64,000 bases of DNA from an uncultured Muribaculaceae bacterium (GTDB lineage Bacteria; Bacteroidota; Bacteroidia; Bacteroidales; Muribaculaceae): NCBI GenBank assembly GCA_944321715.1, contig CALUMJ010000005.1, forward strand, positions 44,208 through 108,207. The letters are read 5' to 3'. The position numbers and the translations under genes are program-made. Below, in pieces: positions 9,830 to 16,949 of this stretch. The notes beneath the pieces were generated by a model that did no database searches, was not told where the DNA came from, and saw only the letters and a list, made by a program, of their open reading frames with translations. Within the stretch, counting starts at the first letter, position 1. Every line of letters starts with the position of its first letter.

Positions 9830-10291
9830 ATGAAACAACTGTACGCAATATTCCTCATCATCGTGTGCGCACTCGCAGCATCGCCATGCGTCGAAGCCCG
9901 CAGAGGCCTCGACCAGGCTCAGAGCGAAAAGCTATTCAGCGCCAAGATGAAAATGATGCAGGAAAAGCTCAAACTCACCGACGAGCAGACCGAAAAACTC
10001 ATACCCATGTATCGCAACTACCTTGGCGAACTCGATGACATCTTCAAGTCGCGACGGTTCCACCGCCGCTTCAAGCCCTCGACCACGCAAGAGGCATGCG
10101 ACGCAGTCACCGAACGCCTCGACATCGACAGCCGTGTCATCGACCTGCAAAAAAAATACATCATAGAATTTTCAAAAATCCTCAACGCCGACCAGCTCAT
10201 GAACATCTACCGCGTCGAGGCCCAAATCCAGCGCGAAATACGCCAAGAATTCCGCCGCCGCTCCCACTCTGGCAACCCGCCCAAAGGGTAA
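9830..10291 (+). CDS. Spy/CpxP-like periplasmic protein
   Basis: 153 aa from the ATG at 9830. A signal peptide (cleaved near SPCVEA) precedes a small, charged, all-helical domain containing KLKLTDEQTEKLIPMYRNYL, which resembles the LTxxQ-type motif of Spy/CpxP proteins. These are periplasmic chaperones or metal and stress sensors. The gene is 17 bp after the putative anti-sigma factor, closing a three-gene cassette that may be a self-regulating envelope-stress unit. The C-terminus is Arg-rich (EIRQEFRRRSHSGNPPKG). Function is inferred from the motif and context. Confidence 0.65.
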   Translation: MKQLYAIFLIIVCALAASPCVEARRGLDQAQSEKLFSAKMKMMQEKLKLTDEQTEKLIPMYRNYLGELDDIFKSRRFHRRFKPSTTQEACDAVTERLDIDSRVIDLQKKYIIEFSKILNADQLMNIYRVEAQIQREIRQEFRRRSHSGNPPKG

Positions 10292-10336
10292 ATCCCCCGC
10301 ACGTCCGTGCTATAACTGAAAATATACTTATATGTC

Positions 10337-10474
10337 GTAGAGCCGTGGCGCGCCGCGGCTCGCTTGTGTGAATTGAAACAAACTGAATGCCAATCGTTTG
10401 CATTGTAGTAATAATTGAGCCGCGGCACGCCACGGCTCTACAGGATTACAAATATGCTATATTGATACACCCCC
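10337..10474. repeat. Inverted-repeat element with a TTGATACACCCCC end
   Basis: Two 25-bp arms, 10337-10361 and 10417-10441, are inverted copies with one mismatch (GTAGAGCCGTGGCGCGCCGC... against its complement), and each arm is nearly palindromic. The right side ends in ATTGATACACCCCC (10461-10474), the same tip as the elements at 19.0 and 33.1 kb. It lies between convergent genes and could also act as a transcription barrier. No transposase is present. Confidence 0.8.
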
Positions 10475-10669
10475 GCTGGCACTGTTGCTATATGTCGTGT
10501 CAATATCTATAGCTTTAAGGTGGTGCATCATAGAGTCATTGACCTCTGTTGAATCAGAAACGACAACGGTGGTATCGGTAGCGGGCAGACTACTAAGATT
10601 TTGGTTCTCGGATATTGTATCGGAGCCAGACTGCACAAGGGGGGTACTAGATTCTTGACTATTCCTCAA
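10457..10669 (-). CDS. Short Ser/Thr-rich hypothetical ORF
   Basis: 70 aa from a TTG that overlaps the preceding stop (TTGA). The product is polar and Ser/Thr/Asp-rich with no signal, span or known motif. Its last codons and stop fall in the GGGGGTGTATCAATATAG tip of the adjacent repeat, so the natural C-terminus may have been replaced when the repeat arrived. Coding status is uncertain. Confidence 0.3.
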   Translation of the reverse strand: MRNSQESSTPLVQSGSDTISENQNLSSLPATDTTVVVSDSTEVNDSMMHHLKAIDIDTTYSNSASGGVSI

Positions 10670-11313
10670 ACCCTAATCTGCGAAATTAAATAAATTAGCC
10701 CCCCGAGAATAAGTGCAACTATTACAGCTACAACACATTCGTTAATGCGGGACTTTTCGTGCAGTACGTTGAAAACGGCATTGCAAAACCCCATATCGAT
10801 TAACTGCCCAATACTATATCTGTCCAAGTCATACTGGGCAGTTATGTCGTTAGCTGGAACAGCCAGATTTATGGTGGGTAATGGGTGCGATGCAATATTG
10901 TCGAGATTTAATTCTCCAAGTCCATTAAGAAATACATCTAAATCAACCCTGCAATCTTGAAATTTTTTGCCAGTAGCCTTATATTCTCCATCTGATTTTT
11001 CTCTGACTATGAGTTGTTCGTCGGCAAGGGATTGAAAGGCACTTCTAAATAAATGGAGTAACTGATTATTATCGTCACATACCCTTGTATCTCTGAAAGC
11101 TATTCCGATATACCGTTTTTTGCTAAACCTATACACATAGGCATAATATATATACCCATTTTCACGGTGTACCAAGATTTGTTCGCTACGCTTGGTAAAC
11201 TTATCAATTTTATAGTCGAGAAGTGGCGTAAATACCCCCATGCCATGGTGGGGGTATTCATAATAACGGCGTTTCGCCATTTTGTTCCGAAACGTTCCAA
11301 ATAGCCAAGTCAT
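10666..11313 (-). CDS. Tail-anchored hypothetical protein of the GTPase module
   Basis: 215 aa from an ATG. A soluble, mixed alpha/beta body of about 185 residues is followed by a C-terminal membrane segment (ECVVAVIVALILGGLIYLIS) and only three or four residues, the layout of a tail-anchored protein facing the cytoplasm. The N-terminus is basic (RNKMAKRRYYEYPHHG). No known domain is recognised. It lies 27 bp after the retropepsin-like gene in an AT-rich block and has AT-rich codon use. It is probably co-transcribed with the GTPase-like and coiled-coil genes. Confidence 0.75.
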   Translation of the reverse strand: MTWLFGTFRNKMAKRRYYEYPHHGMGVFTPLLDYKIDKFTKRSEQILVHRENGYIYYAYVYRFSKKRYIGIAFRDTRVCDDNNQLLHLFRSAFQSLADEQLIVREKSDGEYKATGKKFQDCRVDLDVFLNGLGELNLDNIASHPLPTINLAVPANDITAQYDLDRYSIGQLIDMGFCNAVFNVLHEKSRINECVVAVIVALILGGLIYLISQIRV

Positions 11314-11340
11314 TTCTGCGTATTTTTATTTGAATTGACG

Positions 11341-11874
11341 TTATTCAAACTCAATTACTTTTTCGTCTAAATTGATAGTGTAGGAGTGGGATGCCATTTT
11401 GTCGATAACGGCATTGCCCAATAGAATTGAGGCTCCGGGATTTTGGGCAACAGAAACAGGCACATTATACACCTTGTGAGTGTTACCCTCGGTATCAACC
11501 AAAGCGATCTCGCTGACATTAAACACCATATTCTCAACAACCTCACCGCTTGCTATAGAAGAATATTGAGTTCCTCTTGCATCACCGTCGGTAAGAGTTC
11601 CGGCTTTTATAAGCGACACTGCCTCCTGCACCGAAATAAGGACATCAGAGCAGCCAGTGTCGAATATCGCATCGAAACTTGCCACATCATTGAGCTTGAC
11701 ATGCACAGTTTTCACTCCACCTTGGGTTTCTTTATATTTGACCTTAAAGCTACTTGATTGTGGGGCATCCGTTTCTTTATGGCTGGAATTATCATCAACT
11801 TCTACGGGTTGATAACCACTCCCACCACAAGAGAAAAGTGCAAATGCTAATATTCCTGTGATTATCTTTTTCAT
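11341..11874 (-). CDS. Retropepsin-like aspartyl protease lipoprotein
   Basis: 177 aa. The signal peptide ends in a lipobox (AFALFSCGGSG, Cys about 16). A linker of about 30 residues leads to a single retropepsin-type domain with IFDTGCSDVLIS (catalytic Asp72) and the later SILLGNAVIDKM hairpin, the hydrophobic-Gly motif near the end of clan AA proteases. Retropepsins act as dimers, so one domain is expected. The residue after DTG is Cys where viral enzymes have Ala or Ser. The start overlaps the stop of the coiled-coil gene (ATGA), so translation is coupled. It should sit in the periplasm on a lipid anchor, on the same side as the C-terminal domain of its neighbour, which is a possible substrate. 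Confidence 0.75.
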   Translation of the reverse strand: MKKIITGILAFALFSCGGSGYQPVEVDDNSSHKETDAPQSSSFKVKYKETQGGVKTVHVKLNDVASFDAIFDTGCSDVLISVQEAVSLIKAGTLTDGDARGTQYSSIASGEVVENMVFNVSEIALVDTEGNTHKVYNVPVSVAQNPGASILLGNAVIDKMASHSYTINLDEKVIEFE

Positions 11875-13421
11875 TGTTTTGTAGCATCTAATCTTCTAGT
11901 ACATACTGGTTTGCCGTCCACAGAACAAAGCAGAACAACAATTCCTTCCCCTAACACAGTTATTTGTTTTTCATCATTTATTTGCGCTATAGAGCCTCCA
12001 CCATACAATATTTTAATCTCATAAGCTCCACCATTAAATTCGACAAATCCATTATTGGTCCATTGCCCAAAACGCAACTTGAATGTATTACCAACTTTAA
12101 AAGGATTGATGCTTCTAAGCCCCATTAAGTCTATTTCATTGTCTTTATATTTAGTGTGTATAAGTGCATCAAAAACCTGTTGGTAGGAATTATTCAAACT
12201 GTCGATTACCATCTGTTTTGCGTTTTGTGTCATTGTCATCAAAGAATCCTGTTGTACAACGTTTTGAACTTTACTTGGGCCAATTGTTTGAGTAAAGTTG
12301 TAAACGCTTGCAGCCGTGCAAATTAGCACTGCCACCAAGATAATCCAATTCAACGGGTTAATTTTCTGATGAGTGCTATAAGACATTTCATCGCGAAACG
12401 AAGAAATTTCTTTAGATAAGCTGCGAACATTACTCGCCAGTTCATTAATGTTGCTGTCTAACTTCTCCTTTTGGGGATTAGTTTCTTTTGGATTATTTGC
12501 TGTAGCCCCAGATGGCCTCGTTGTTGTACCACCACCCATTGGTCTTGTTGTTGTACCCCACGATGGCCTCGTCTTCGGTTCTTGATTTGTGGCAGTATTT
12601 CTTTGTTGCTGCTTTAGTTGCTCCTCAAGATTCCTTATCTTTTCTTCAAGAGCTTTTATTTCTTCGGCATGAACATTCCCTGCTTTGCACAAATCGATTT
12701 GCGCCTTAGAAAGAGCTTGCTCAATTTCTGTTACTTTGTTTTCAAGTTGTTGCTTGTTATCCGTAAGTGTTTTATTTTCTCTCGACAAGGCATCAACCGA
12801 TTTTGACAACTTGTCATAATCAGCCCTCATCTGTTCGACAGGAGGATAAATGCTTGTCACGCACACTTTGCCATTGCTGCGCAACGTGCCGTAGAACGAT
12901 GTGCTGTCTATATCCTTGGGATTGTATTGCACCGGAGTGTTCAATGGCCGAGGGCCATGAAATGTTTCATCTATTTCTCTGAAGTCGCGCTCGTCCAACC
13001 TGTTATACACATCATTTGCGAGCGAAGCCATCATTCCCTCTTTCCCGGCAAACGAGTTTATTAGATAGTGCCCCTTTTCGTCGATAAATTTCAGAACCGT
13101 CCTTAATCCGCCCGTATAAACGAAATCCATCAATTCATACATTTTGGAGGTGCAGATGCTGTAATGCCCCTCCACTATCAGGGTCAAGACACAATACCCA
13201 TTAGGTCGGTTAGAGTAGTCTGTGCCATCGTTATAATAAGAATAAATGCTATAATAGCGGTTCCTCCACCTGCGCACTTCAACCACAAGGCATGGACTCG
13301 CCGATGGCTGCGAGTTGAAAAACTCGTTGTAAATTTGAGTTTCCAAACCGTTAACCATGTCCTGCTGTGCCGTGGTTTCGCCACTATATGGCTTCCCATG
13401 AATGAAAAAATATTTATTCAT
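11871..13421 (-). CDS. Coiled-coil single-span membrane protein with N-terminal cytosolic domain
   Basis: 516 aa with no signal peptide. Order of parts: a globular domain (1-165) with RYYSIYSYYNDGTDYSNRPN and LTLIVEGHYS; a coiled coil (about 196-275); a Thr/Gly/Arg/Pro linker with near-repeats RPSWGTTTRP and MGGGTTTRPSG (285-304); a second short coiled coil (320-346); one membrane span (NPLNWIILVAVLICTAASVY, 355-374); and a periplasmic domain of about 140 residues. The layout suggests a scaffold or signal carrier linking an intracellular sensor to the envelope. It follows the GTPase-like gene by 47 bp and overlaps the retropepsin gene. The N-terminal domain recalls uncharacterised Bacteroidetes proteins; no function is known to me. 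Confidence 0.75.
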   Translation of the reverse strand: MNKYFFIHGKPYSGETTAQQDMVNGLETQIYNEFFNSQPSASPCLVVEVRRWRNRYYSIYSYYNDGTDYSNRPNGYCVLTLIVEGHYSICTSKMYELMDFVYTGGLRTVLKFIDEKGHYLINSFAGKEGMMASLANDVYNRLDERDFREIDETFHGPRPLNTPVQYNPKDIDSTSFYGTLRSNGKVCVTSIYPPVEQMRADYDKLSKSVDALSRENKTLTDNKQQLENKVTEIEQALSKAQIDLCKAGNVHAEEIKALEEKIRNLEEQLKQQQRNTATNQEPKTRPSWGTTTRPMGGGTTTRPSGATANNPKETNPQKEKLDSNINELASNVRSLSKEISSFRDEMSYSTHQKINPLNWIILVAVLICTAASVYNFTQTIGPSKVQNVVQQDSLMTMTQNAKQMVIDSLNNSYQQVFDALIHTKYKDNEIDLMGLRSINPFKVGNTFKLRFGQWTNNGFVEFNGGAYEIKILYGGGSIAQINDEKQITVLGEGIVVLLCSVDGKPVCTRRLDATKQ

Positions 13422-13468
13422 ATCTCATTGGTTGAATAAACTGGTTTATAATCTATTGGCACTCAGAA

Positions 13469-14443
13469 TTAGAAACGGTCGGTCAAAGCTTTCCACAAAT
13501 CCTCGGCTTTTGCCATTATACCAGCATCTGCCGTATATGTTTGTCCAATCACATCGCCGTTATAATTTTTTACGTTTGTAAAAGCGCGCCCTGACACGTA
13601 TGGTAGCATCTTATAATCTGGAATATCCCAAAATAAAAACTTGTGATTAAATTCTTTCTTTATATCGCCATAGTAATCATCCAGCAGTTGTTTCATCACT
13701 TTCTTACGAGAGTCGTTGGATTTGTTCTTATCGAATTTATTATAGAGTAGAATAATGCGGTCGCCTCTACTTTTTGAGAAACCTTCTTTATATATCTCAA
13801 TCAGCCTTTGCGCATAACTTAGGCGCAAATTATTGTTGCGTTGTAATGGCGAATTACCATACATAGTATAAAGGTCTAGCAACATAACATAATACACTGG
13901 GTGAGCATTTTGACCCGTTGAAATGACTGCATTTAAGTAGTTCGCCATTCCTTTATCTGGGTCGTTAACGTCAAAGAAGTGTTCACCAGGAGCTTCCAAC
14001 AACCTTAACTTCTTACCGTCGCCTTTATCATAAATGTCAACCAAAATTTCATTAAGAGTTCCTGGCAGGACAGGCTTGGGCGTGTTCAGTCCCAAGTTAG
14101 CAGTTTGGTCTAATATTTTCTTGAAAACATTGCAATTATTTACATAATTTGGGTCATCTGCATTATAATCCATGTCGGGAGCGACACTATAGCTCGTATT
14201 GCTGCGGACATATTCCACCAAGCTCATTAACACCATGCTTTTCCCACATCCAGATGGTCCAATGAACACCACTACTGGTGCATTGCCTTCTATCTTGTGT
14301 CTTGTGCCACCAAGTGGCATCCCCGGGTTAGCGTCATTCTGCATTTCCATAGCGTTGCCGGCATTCACATTGCCTGCTCGATTATCCTTACCATCTACTT
14401 GACCAAGGATGGTACCTTGTTCTGTCGTATCTAATTTTGGCAT
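13469..14443 (-). CDS. P-loop GTPase-like NTPase
   Basis: 324 aa from the ATG at 14443; a longer in-frame start upstream would overlap the previous gene. Walker A is GPSGCGKS (62-69). A G3/Walker-B-like strand reads RLLEAPGEHFF (147-157), and the G4-like motif is LLYNKFDK (232-239). The A-P-G-E form in place of DxxG resembles bacterial GTPases of predicted NTP-dependent conflict or signalling systems. The first 50 residues are polar and probably disordered. No membrane span is seen, so it is cytoplasmic. Neighbours on both sides are membrane proteins, which suggests it powers or gates an assembly at the inner membrane. Substrate preference for GTP is inferred from NKxD. Confidence 0.75.
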   Translation of the reverse strand: MPKLDTTEQGTILGQVDGKDNRAGNVNAGNAMEMQNDANPGMPLGGTRHKIEGNAPVVVFIGPSGCGKSMVLMSLVEYVRSNTSYSVAPDMDYNADDPNYVNNCNVFKKILDQTANLGLNTPKPVLPGTLNEILVDIYDKGDGKKLRLLEAPGEHFFDVNDPDKGMANYLNAVISTGQNAHPVYYVMLLDLYTMYGNSPLQRNNNLRLSYAQRLIEIYKEGFSKSRGDRIILLYNKFDKNKSNDSRKKVMKQLLDDYYGDIKKEFNHKFLFWDIPDYKMLPYVSGRAFTNVKNYNGDVIGQTYTADAGIMAKAEDLWKALTDRF

Positions 14444-14466
14444 AATATTTAATTTTGATTTGTTAA

Positions 14467-15570
14467 TTAATTCCATTTTATAAGTCCTATAAGTATGAAA
14501 GCCATTACATCGACAATGATAGCCCATGGCAATTTTCCACCGACATCTATATCACTATCATCTGAGATATAACCTTTTAACCAATCTTGCCATAGATTGA
14601 ATGCATTAAACATACGTTCGGACGGATATATTTTATATTTAACCAATTCGGTTTTTCCATCTTCGCTGATTTGAGTTTCTTCTATTGAAGATTTATAATC
14701 TTCAGGCATCTTGCTTAACAGCTTAGTGTATATATCATCATAGCAATCGTGGTAGTCTTTAAATTTTCCCGAATCTTTTATCTGAGGCAATGCCCGAACT
14801 TCTAATTCTTTCGCAATCTGCAAAGTCTCTTCAAGGCGGTCGGTATTTTCTTTTTGAGCATTATAGTATTTATTTATGGCATCGTATTTCCGATTTAAAC
14901 AGCTATTAATTCTGCCCAAATATTTAGTCTTTAACCCCTGCACGGCTATTCTATCAGTCGTATTCCGGTCATTTTTATCATAGCTTTCATTGTATATGAC
15001 ATATTTACCTTCCTTATACAGGGTTGTATCGCTATTTAATTCATTCTCTATTTGTTTAAGAATCTGGATGCAATCATCGCCAAAACCATAAAAACCTTTA
15101 GATTCCAAACTTGCTTCAAAATTGTTCCGAAGATTATAAACACGACTCGATATGTCTGCTTGTGCCTGTGCAGCTTTTTTGGCAACATCCTCATCGGCAG
15201 CAGCTCGCTGCTTTTCAAGATACGCAATACAGCTATGCAGTTGTGCGGCAATAACTTTATCCCCGTGATTTGCTACCACTGCATAATGCACGTTGGTCAT
15301 AAAACTCCACCCCCAAAACACAAGAAAAATTATACTCCAAAAAATGGTCATTGATTTGCTTGGATTTACGGGGTTTTTAATTTCTTTAATGATTTTTGTT
15401 AACGCAACACCTGCAATCAATGAAATACTAAATGCCACAATATATGCCACAAAAAATGGCACGCCAGACAACCAGCCCGAATTGATGCTGTTTGCAGTCA
15501 TGTAGGCACTTATTGCAGCAAATAAGCAGTAGCCTAAAAATAAGGCAACGTTAATCAGAATTTGTTTCAT
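14467..15570 (-). CDS. Polytopic membrane protein of the GTPase module
   Basis: 367 aa. Three N-terminal membrane segments (about 5-25, 37-60, 73-92) are followed by a large hydrophilic, helical region of about 240 residues with Ala/Gln-rich coiled coil (EDVAKKAAQAQADISSRV), and a final membrane segment (LPWAIIVDVMAFILIGLIKW) at the C-terminus. The three-plus-one topology places the central domain on one side of the membrane. No family is recognised; the shape loosely recalls sensor or channel-like proteins. It is the first gene of the AT-rich module, after two hairpins, and precedes the GTPase-like gene by 23 bp. Confidence 0.75.
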   Translation of the reverse strand: MKQILINVALFLGYCLFAAISAYMTANSINSGWLSGVPFFVAYIVAFSISLIAGVALTKIIKEIKNPVNPSKSMTIFWSIIFLVFWGWSFMTNVHYAVVANHGDKVIAAQLHSCIAYLEKQRAAADEDVAKKAAQAQADISSRVYNLRNNFEASLESKGFYGFGDDCIQILKQIENELNSDTTLYKEGKYVIYNESYDKNDRNTTDRIAVQGLKTKYLGRINSCLNRKYDAINKYYNAQKENTDRLEETLQIAKELEVRALPQIKDSGKFKDYHDCYDDIYTKLLSKMPEDYKSSIEETQISEDGKTELVKYKIYPSERMFNAFNLWQDWLKGYISDDSDIDVGGKLPWAIIVDVMAFILIGLIKWN

Positions 15571-15621
15571 AAGAACTATTTTGTTTTATTCTACGTGTTA
15601 ATACTTTGTGGTTTATTCGGT

Positions 15622-15654
15622 GCCTCGGAGGCTGTTTACTTTCTCGAAAGTAAA
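15622..15654 (-). other. Pair of hairpins at the upstream edge of the AT-rich module
   Basis: GCCTCGGAGGC (15622-15632) and TTTACTTTCTCGAAAGTAAA (15635-15654, 9-bp arms) lie back to back in the 91-bp gap between two genes. There is no T-run, so this is not a canonical terminator. They could stop or process transcripts coming from the barrel and lipoprotein genes, or mark the junction of the inserted module. Confidence 0.5.
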
Positions 15655-15661
15655 TTTCATT

Positions 15662-16027
15662 TTAATCCCATGAATGGGTGTTGTGGATTATGTCTTGCAG
15701 GGTTTCGGCTGTTTGCTTTACGCTTTCATCGCTTTGCAACCATTGGCGGAATTCGTCTTTGGTTCCCGAAAACACCCCTTGCGAGGCCGAATACATTTCG
15801 GGATAACGACTGTTGAAATCGATGCAAGCCACCACTCTCCCATTCCGATTCCGAGACATGGACAACTCCACGTCTTGGATTTGCCTACCTACCATATCCT
15901 TGCCCAAGTCGATTTTCACGCTATACGCTTCATCATCTTGATGGACAACCAAGTCGGCAATAAACGACCGCGCCATCTCAAGCATCTCCAATGAGTACCG
16001 CGCCCTCGGCTTCCGTTTCTTAGACAT
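15662..16027 (-). CDS. Hypothetical protein, 121 aa
   Basis: The protein begins with a strongly basic stretch (MSKKRKPRARYSLEMLEM) and continues as a soluble alpha/beta protein without signal or span. The ATG at 16027 lies 35 bp after a lipoprotein gene. Its composition is closer to the G+C-normal genes upstream than to the AT-rich module downstream. No family is recognised. The basic start could bind nucleic acid or acidic partners, but nothing more can be said. Confidence 0.6.
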   Translation of the reverse strand: MSKKRKPRARYSLEMLEMARSFIADLVVHQDDEAYSVKIDLGKDMVGRQIQDVELSMSRNRNGRVVACIDFNSRYPEMYSASQGVFSGTKDEFRQWLQSDESVKQTAETLQDIIHNTHSWD

Positions 16028-16062
16028 ATTTTTATTATATCTCCTTATAAATATTTGTGGTT

Positions 16063-16518
16063 TTACTCTATCACAGTAATGGTAGATGGCGTTACTTTGT
16101 TGGTGTAGCTGTCCTCCCCGCTGTGCGAAGGCGTGATGCTTACCGACAAAGTGTGTTCGCCAATAGCCAAATCCTCCACGGTGTAAGTCGCTGAAAATGG
16201 GAGGCCTTTTTCTTCAGAGTCGGCAACCTCAACTCCGTCAATCAAGTAATGCACAACCGGATAATACTCCTCACCGTTAATAGTATTCCATTCAGAACCC
16301 GCTATGCGACCGCCTATGGTAAACTGTACTTCATCACCATTCTTAACTGTGGACGGTGTGGCAACAGCTTGTCCTGTGACTGTCGAGCTGATTGTGACTT
16401 TAATATTGTCATCTTCTTCACATGAAAAGAGAGTAGTTGCTAATGCTATTAGCAGCACAGGCAACAGGAATATTTTTGCTGTTTTCATCTTTTCGTTTCG
16501 TTTTTTATTTTTATCCAT
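16063..16518 (-). CDS. Small lipoprotein with Ig-like fold
   Basis: 151 aa from 16518, or 141 aa from a second ATG at 16488 that gives a more usual signal peptide (MKTAKIFLLPVLLIALATT, lipobox LFSC). The mature protein is beta-rich with repeated Val/Thr strands and a YTVEDLAIGEHTLSVSI segment, resembling Ig-like or cadherin-like domains of surface proteins. It is paired with another small lipoprotein 8 bp upstream that has the same VGEHTFG-type strand, so the two are probably paralogues or partners of the barrel protein before them. Confidence 0.7.
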   Translation of the reverse strand: MDKNKKRNEKMKTAKIFLLPVLLIALATTLFSCEEDDNIKVTISSTVTGQAVATPSTVKNGDEVQFTIGGRIAGSEWNTINGEEYYPVVHYLIDGVEVADSEEKGLPFSATYTVEDLAIGEHTLSVSITPSHSGEDSYTNKVTPSTITVIE

Positions 16519-16526
16519 GTTTTATG

Positions 16527-16928
16527 CTATTCGGTCACATGTACGGTTACAATGTCATCGTAATCGTCGGGTATATCTACACTTCCGTCGGCATACACAG
16601 TAACTATCTTAATCCCGAATGTGTGTTCACCCACGGTGTCCATTACCTTTCTAAAAGTGTACGGGAACTCTTTCACGATTTCCACTTCCACATCGTCCCA
16701 GTATAAAATAAGATACTTCTCATCAATATCTTCACTGGTAGAATAGGACAACGACAAGTCGCACCTGAAAGTTTCCCCAATCTTCAAGTCCGTACCGTAA
16801 TTATAAGCGTACAGCGTAGCACTACTTACAGAAATTGATACTTTTGGCGGCTCTGGGTCTGGAGAACAAGAAGTCAACCCAATCAAAAGCCCCATCAATA
16901 CAAATACAAGTACAAAAAATCTATTCAT
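16527..16928 (-). CDS. Small lipoprotein with Ig-like fold (paralogue-like)
   Basis: 133 aa from the ATG at 16928; the codon two positions upstream is TTG and is not needed. The signal peptide ends in a clear lipobox (GLLIGLTSC), then SPDPEPPKVSISV leads into a beta-rich domain ending YDDIVTVHVTE. The strand TVGEHTFGIKIV parallels IGEHTLSVSI in the next gene. It lies 21 bp after a FadL-like barrel gene and 8 bp before the second lipoprotein, so the three are probably co-transcribed and may act together at the outer membrane. Confidence 0.7.
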   Translation of the reverse strand: MNRFFVLVFVLMGLLIGLTSCSPDPEPPKVSISVSSATLYAYNYGTDLKIGETFRCDLSLSYSTSEDIDEKYLILYWDDVEVEIVKEFPYTFRKVMDTVGEHTFGIKIVTVYADGSVDIPDDYDDIVTVHVTE

Positions 16929-16949
16929 ATCCAAATTTTCAATTAATGG

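Follow-up and report, generated by a model that had tools for sequence, protein, structure and literature searches.

A five-gene cassette of Bacteroidota predicted to encode a trans-membrane GTPase switch with a periplasmic retropepsin-like protease

We analysed a 64,000-nt stretch of DNA (hereafter the window) from an uncultured Muribaculaceae bacterium (GCA_944321715.1, CALUMJ010000005.1, positions 44,208-108,207 of the forward strand). In an initial annotation, made from the letters of the window, six consecutive minus-strand genes had been singled out as an uncharacterised membrane-linked GTPase module. The six open reading frames (ORFs), A to F, do lie in a row on the minus strand at 10457-15570 (Table 1), and five of them, A to E, form a genuine cassette which behaves as a unit in other genomes. 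Our reading, to which we assign a probability of about 0.48, is that they encode a GTPase switch which acts across the membrane, is accessory and passes horizontally between genomes; longin-type domains would probably control it, and a periplasmic protease goes with it.

The conservation of the cassette was assessed with protein B as query against 397 genomes of the same family, the window genome not included. Matches with E below 1e-8 were found in 16 of them; eight more genomes gave weak matches (E 5.6e-4 to 0.0072), which were left out of the count, and none of the eight congeners gave a match. A, B and C are present in this order on one strand in all 16 loci, and in 15 of these D, E or both come next (locus L031 stops after C, and L023 stops within E). 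When an alignment of B (A1) was scanned over genome contigs, 111 pattern matches were obtained, of which 99 were relatives, and 80 loci were kept. Seventy-four of the 80 are labelled Bacteroidota, counting some Candidatus names that we take to belong there; the six with other labels (L047, L061, L083, L111, L113 and L115) may be misbinned. Among the carriers are named isolates, e.g. Bacteroides luti DSM 26991 (L088) and Parabacteroides distasonis NM39_I3 (L102).

With profiles built from the first loci, A was called in 77 of the 80 loci, B in 78, C in 79, D in 58 and E in 63. A, B and C are contiguous in 74 of them. The six exceptions are two loci that begin at a contig edge in B (L113 and L115), one with two B genes (L106), and three in which the B frame was missed by the ORF caller or split from its neighbours (L037, L043 and L076). 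The complete order, A to E, was found in 47 loci (one inserted gene being tolerated at C-D and at D-E). In 63 loci the sequence continues for 3 kb or more past C. The D gene was called in 49 of these and the E gene in 59, and an uncalled D reading frame is present in L037, L089 and L107. The homologues are syntenic and not scattered, in agreement with the module proposed in the initial annotation.

The proteins also diverge together. Loci duplicating the first 16 contigs were removed before motifs and distances were counted, which left 81 B proteins plus that of the window. The Mantel rho was 0.76 for A-B, 0.68 for B-C, 0.70 for B-D, 0.63 for C-D, 0.48 for C-E and 0.49 for B-E (59-78 loci), and for each of the six pairs 0 of 1000 permutations reached the observed value. 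That the genes are chance neighbours in an AT-rich island, devoid of any shared function, might be suggested by the composition of the block and by its replacement in a sister genome (see below); this is ruled out, save for a negligible probability, by the same order and strand in distant genomes and by the co-divergence.

B displays the three motifs reported in the annotation, GPSGCGKS, EAPGE and NKFD. In the set of 82 B proteins, the P-loop is present in 82, E[AG]PGE in 78 and [NT]KxD in 76, the G3 motif being the variant EAPGE in place of DxxG. The start of B is more likely at 14476 or 14443 than at 14527, because the B proteins of relatives begin just after A. A Foldseek search with the B model returned 51 matches at E<=0.001; nearly all of the best 50 were named TRAFAC GTPases (MglA, Rag/Gtr, Rab, EF-Tu), two being ribosomal entries with unnamed chains. 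As modelled, B resembles a soluble TRAFAC-like GTPase.

By profile-profile comparison, B matched an alignment of 11 DO-GTPase sequences (A10) with E 1.8e-8 over 178 columns, a similarity that extends beyond the P-loop, and a second DO-GTPase (A11) with E 9.1e-5; the values for a deeper B alignment were 1.9e-7 over 158 columns and 2.6e-4, respectively. Five groups of housekeeping GTPases, taken from seven related genomes and judged by eye to be of the Der, Era, MnmE, Obg and HflX types, gave E 0.0036 or worse against the deeper alignment (four over 21-32 columns, one over 58). The annotation had considered that the P-loop protein might match a housekeeping family; by profile, B is closer to the DO-GTPases than to these five groups. 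This link is the closest among those tested and is not exclusive, because two of the housekeeping groups match the DO-GTPase about as well as B does (E 2.6e-7 and 2.3e-8).

The closest published systems that we found are the GTPase-centric conflict systems combining a DO-GTPase with a GAP1 protein (Kaur et al., eLife 2020, PMC7159879). They share with the cassette a TRAFAC GTPase with a related (D/E)xxGE-type motif (A10), an adjacent partner protein and an accessory distribution; their membrane-linked GAP1-N2 forms have the same general plan, with a C-terminal transmembrane (TM) segment and extracellular beta domains. What sets the cassette apart is that two of its proteins have paralogous N-domains, that it includes a 4-TM protein and a retropepsin lipoprotein, and that there is usually one GTPase gene; the words retropepsin, longin and roadblock are absent from the main text of PMC7159879.

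It could nevertheless be a plain DO-GTPase/GAP1 system in which C and E are divergent GAP1 proteins. Besides the profile match of B, the EAPGE motif parallels the conserved Walker-B glutamate of DO-GTPases (PMC7159879), the N-domain of C (C-N) and GAP1-N1 show by eye a comparable series of conserved residues (Gly, Gly, Tyr, Arg, Gly), and the profile score of C was above that of 100 out of 100 column shuffles in global mode and 96 out of 100 in local mode. For E, however, 38 of 100 (local) and 67 of 100 (global) shuffles scored as high. Alignment of C-N with GAP1-N1 by hhalign gave a probability of 0.4% (E 0.15), like the negative control (0.3%, E 0.21), and that of the E N-domain (E-N) gave 1.0% (E 0.055), neither being significant. 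Neither the DO-GTPase1 model (PF19975) nor the GAP1-N models (PF20012 and PF20013) had a match in the window genome at E<=0.001, the DO-GTPase2 model not being part of that search. Among the Pfam and NCBIfam matches listed for ten proteins of the window (for C, the best 25), no GASH, FNIII or zinc ribbon protein was recognised, although no dedicated GASH search was made. With no DO-GTPase1 match and no recognised GASH or FNIII protein, the cassette fails on sequence grounds as a member of these systems, and we regard the possibility as unlikely. The statement in the annotation that no named system corresponds to the block holds as to membership; it has to be amended as to B, which is a profile-level relative of the DO-GTPases (Kaur et al. 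2020).

C and E were annotated as a coiled-coil protein crossing the membrane once and a tail-anchored protein; both descriptions are borne out, with a single TM segment near residue 365 in C and near the C-terminus in E. Profile-profile comparison of C-N with E-N scored 98.6%, and 99.2% in a second comparison, which identifies the two as homologous at the sequence level. In 64 C proteins out of 78, and in 53 E proteins out of 57, the part that precedes the single TM segment carries more net charge than the part that follows it, and so we place the N-domains inside. C diverges fast: relatives are 12-17% identical to the C of the window. The AlphaFold2 model of C has a mean pLDDT of 82.7 (93-98 over residues 1-150). 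Its Foldseek matches, all above E 0.001, comprise immunoglobulin (Ig)-like domains of the Big type, TagF, PAS, and chains of the GATOR1, FLCN-FNIP2 and Lst4 longin entries. In the model, the order of strands and helices of the N-domain was found by eye to be compatible with a longin-like domain, and a C9orf72-like Pfam model gave weak hits in 4 of 53 E N-domains (best E 0.0095) and 1 of 80 C; a sequence search of the PDB gave no longin match for the C and E N-domains. We take these domains to be probably longin-like, PAS being a competing match.

The C and E genes show some variations. Seven loci (L062, L063, L064, L067, L069, L103 and L112) contain an extra, mostly secreted-looking coiled-coil gene (95-242 amino acids, aa) between C and D, or between C and C in L069; six of the seven fall in one cluster, and C is long in these loci (582-710 aa). 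In L086:10638-16616 and L098:10577-13316, the cassette is followed by tandem E paralogues with differing membrane and tail parts, like a variable sensor array.

The window E has 215 aa, against 330-509 aa for the complete E proteins of the first 16 loci, short ones (174-265 aa) being found too among the 80 loci. Many E proteins of relatives have a long tail following the TM segment. This difference in length makes ORF F doubtful as a gene: it is a Ser/Thr-rich frame of 70 codons with a TTG start and no Pfam, NCBIfam or PADLOC family match, perhaps a detached tail of E. The six-gene set of the annotation is therefore retained for A to E.

For A, three-plus-one spans had been described. Hydrophobic segments are found near residues 13, 48 and 352 in the window protein; a fourth, near 85, is present in most relatives, and 61 of 77 A proteins have four segments. 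The mean loop charges of the relatives are compatible with an N-in topology, the long loop being outside. A had no Pfam match over the cut-off and no PDB sequence match at E<=0.1. D is, as annotated, an aspartyl-protease lipoprotein coupled to C by ATGA: it has the retropepsin motif DTGCS and matches Pfam Asp_protease_2 above the gathering score (E 4e-7). D[TS]G is present in 57 of 60 D proteins (58 counting DPG); of the two without the motif, one is masked at this position and the other reads DTAA. A lipobox, searched with a loose pattern, is present in 48 of the 60, and the best PDB relative is the ApRick protease (a weak match, E 0.007). D is predicted from these motifs to be a retropepsin-type lipoprotein on the outer side of the membrane.

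Longin-type regulation of GTPases is best known from mTORC1 and vesicle traffic: longin pairs (GATOR1, FLCN-FNIP) regulate Rag GTPases, while the roadblock protein MglB regulates MglA. The model of B recalls MglA and Rag/Gtr, and that of C the GATOR1, FLCN-FNIP2 and Lst4 longin chains, weakly and in competition with PAS. Unlike these regulators, those presumed in the cassette would be fixed in the membrane and carry periplasmic domains. By analogy, C and E could pair up through their homologous, probably longin-like domains in the cytosol, bind B and set its nucleotide state; they might act as GTPase-activating protein (GAP), guanine nucleotide exchange factor or effector. Their single TM helices would join them to periplasmic Ig-like or coiled-coil parts, and A would contribute four membrane helices as an anchor, together with a large domain in the periplasm. 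Events at the envelope would then be relayed inward to B, or else B-GTP would drive a change in the membrane complex. D would most likely trim the periplasmic part of C, E or A, and so set or end the signal.

The cassette is rare. Searched with a profile of B, the order (324 genomes) gave four genomes scoring above 200 bits, the window genome being one of them, and the phylum (247 genomes) gave the window genome alone; the weaker hits, in five genomes of the order and three of the phylum, were of 18.7-22.7 bits and covered 30-92 positions around the P-loop. In the congener G007 both flanks are kept, a sigma-factor-like protein being 97% and an outer membrane protein (OMP)-like one 99% identical, and the 6.7 kb enclosed by window positions 10269 and 16948 have given way to about 6.3 kb of other lipoprotein and secreted-protein genes. 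Ten window proteins were searched at the G007 site: matches were found for the OMP-like protein and for 33 residues of one small lipoprotein only. The segment 10270-16947 and the G007 site are thus a spot of exchange. In four more congeners (L188, L189, L191 and L192) the common left flank stops at about 10261 and other genes follow, the stretches compared covering the left flank and not the right one; for L190, 485 bases only were aligned. One gene of the G007 operon (L187:5822-11996) is weakly caspase-like (Raptor_N, E 4.6e-4, below the cut-off) and another has WG repeats.

B had no tblastn match in phage and plasmid collections. In IMG/VR, the single B protein gave no match, and the B alignment found one relative among 21 pattern matches. 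On a viral-labelled contig (L193:691-6417) the neighbours of the cassette include two genes of the phage-integrase family, one HTH_17 gene and a fragment of a type I restriction specificity gene; this contig looks like a genomic island, not a phage.

The surroundings of the cassette mostly differ from one locus to another: the 573 genes within six genes of the core fall into 481 clusters. A family of BACON-type proteins is found directly after the cassette, downstream of E, in L040, L041, L093 and L108, and a lipoprotein of about 420 aa follows it in L057, L060 and L073. In three of the 80 loci (L081:4406-6693, L114:2-1213 and L068:11261-13568) the cassette is adjoined by a MotB/ZorB-like gene with a multi-TM partner. 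Two of these genes were scanned and matched PADLOC ZorB1 (E 4e-11 and 2e-12), and the third was assigned by clustering; the partner in L081 is weakly MotA-like (E 4e-4, below the cut-off), with an extra E-type gene before the pair. Such a pair recalls the ZorAB motor of Zorya (PMC11890865); unlike in Zorya, the ZorB-like gene is no part of the window cassette, ZorC, ZorD and ZorE not having been searched for. Among ten proteins of the window, PADLOC models of anti-phage systems matched B (P-loop) and C (coiled coil, from the best 25 of 34 matches listed) only. PADLOC was also run on 103 neighbours from the 80 loci (best 25 of 57 and best 25 of 103 families); those listed with E<=1e-5 included PDC-S01, a PN-type effector and PDC-M60C, two proteins each, and PDC-S02, mad3 and mad8, one each.

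The set of a lipoprotein, TM proteins and a P-loop protein is of the same kind as the TssJ-TssL-TssM base of type VI secretion, so that a complex for anchoring in the membrane or for export, bearing a loose analogy to this base and having a TagF-like regulator, was also envisaged. TagF is the best non-Ig Foldseek match of C (E 0.007), and the MotB/ZorB-like neighbours could fit. The recurrent flank families are, however, unlike tail-tube, sheath or effector genes, no dedicated search having been made for these, and we hold such a complex to be very improbable.

There is a precedent for a retropepsin on the outside that works with a TM protein and an ATP-grasp protein on the inside. In Pseudomonas aeruginosa, the Rlo operon encodes the secreted retropepsin RloA, the TM protein RloB, an inactive transglutaminase, and the cytoplasmic ATP-grasp protein RloC, all acting in one process of stress tolerance and cell shape (PMC12239564). 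As in the cassette, a secreted retropepsin-like protease is genetically tied to a TM and a cytoplasmic protein of one operon; unlike the cassette, the Rlo set has neither a GTPase nor a longin-like pair. By extension, and given that MglA is among the fold matches of B, the cassette could, in place of defence, serve envelope homeostasis (osmotic or cell-wall control) or polarity, in the manner of the Rlo operon or of MglA/MglB. Its rarity and patchiness even in congeners, the other operon at the same site in the sister genome and the fast divergence of C, all of them unusual for homeostasis, speak against this, and we consider it on the whole improbable.

Several observations weigh against the GTPase switch as we propose it. 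The B model has a mean pLDDT of 62 (its core is better). Searched by sequence profile, B is closest in the PDB to FtsY and SRP54, which belong to the SIMIBI class (E 6e-5, P-loop region), and in Pfam its top hits are to generic P-loop families, so that the TRAFAC assignment rests on the fold and on the NKxD and EAPGE motifs. The longin matches of C are weak (E 0.03-0.11), the one to the Lst4 longin domain having a TM-score of 0.57 (target length) and E 0.06, and a PAS domain ranks higher (E 0.015); Foldseek gave no aligned range, and these matches were therefore attributed to the N-domain by inference. D is missing in 11 of the 63 loci that continue far enough past C (3 kb or more), from which it follows that proteolysis is not indispensable. 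Part of the co-divergence may reflect host phylogeny. Lastly, the scan of the flanks, which had no control set, gave no evident enrichment of defence genes among the matches listed.

Even so, the patchy distribution, the site swap, the copy on a mobile-looking island, the kinship of B with conflict GTPases and the ZorB-like neighbours in three loci make us lean to a role in conflict, such as defence or the sensing of envelope attack, the odds of which we put a little short of even. The relay suggested in the annotation stands as a unit, with a GTPase inside, single-pass proteins and a retropepsin lipoprotein outside; a defence role for it is a plausible proposal. A bolder form of the proposal is that two paralogous longin proteins with periplasmic sensors control a DO-type GTPase and are reset by the retropepsin lipoprotein, which would make the cassette a trans-envelope immune or conflict switch, the bacterial counterpart of GATOR1/FLCN-FNIP; this we offer as a rather doubtful possibility. 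No description of the cassette was found in the open papers surveyed by title and start of abstract, which does not prove novelty.

The limits of the block were examined from its composition. G+C is 0.38-0.42 over 11-17 kb, against mostly 0.46-0.57 in the neighbouring kilobases. The AT-rich character noted in the annotation is thus confirmed, and the upper limit given there (15570) is too short, since both the change in composition and the variable block reach about 16.95 kb and take in three more genes on the same strand. The latter have no relatives in the 16 family loci compared. The upstream lipoproteins and the OMP-like gene were considered as cassette members and set aside, because they lack relatives in these loci. 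The border of hairpins and a mobile-looking repeat described in the annotation corresponds to two near-identical palindromic hairpins which together make a 25-nt inverted repeat (10337-10361/10417-10441); they have no other copy in the window and may be a repeat element or a terminator. As to a mobile element, no transposase or integrase was found by Pfam among the proteins of the block. A search of 9-19 kb with Rfam gave no match. A, E, F, lipo1 and the 121-aa ORF had no Pfam, NCBIfam or PADLOC match that passed a cut-off, and the matches of B and C were to P-loop and coiled-coil families.

Table 1. Features of the block and its borders (window coordinates)
Feature	Position	Strand	Description
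A	14467..15570	-	367-aa predicted inner-membrane protein: three N-terminal TM segments, predicted periplasmic domain of ~250 residues, one C-terminal TM segment
B	13469..14527	-	putative soluble TRAFAC-like GTPase; P-loop, EAPGE, NKFD; Foldseek; DO-GTPase profile match
C	11871..13421	-	predicted cytosolic N-domain (~1-190, longin-like or PAS-like), coiled coil, TM 356-379, Ig-like periplasmic domain (430-514)
D	11341..11874	-	predicted retropepsin-like aspartyl protease lipoprotein; ATGA overlap with C; Pfam Asp_protease_2
E	10666..11313	-	N-domain homologous to that of C; one TM segment; shorter than in the first 16 relatives
F	10457..10669	-	70-codon Ser/Thr-rich ORF; TTGA overlap with E; doubtful gene
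Paired hairpins / 25-nt inverted repeat	10337..10441		downstream border; one hairpin terminator-like on the minus strand
Variable block	10270..16947		other operon in its place in sister genome G007
Three further genes of the variable block	15662..16934	-	121-aa ORF and two small lipoproteins

To conclude, since the cassette is carried by named isolates, deletion and expression tests are feasible. If our reading is true, GTPase-centric conflict systems would also include a version in gut Bacteroidota that crosses the inner membrane, a GTPase inside would be linked to an aspartyl protease outside, and longin-type GTPase regulation would serve bacteria as a transmembrane relay.

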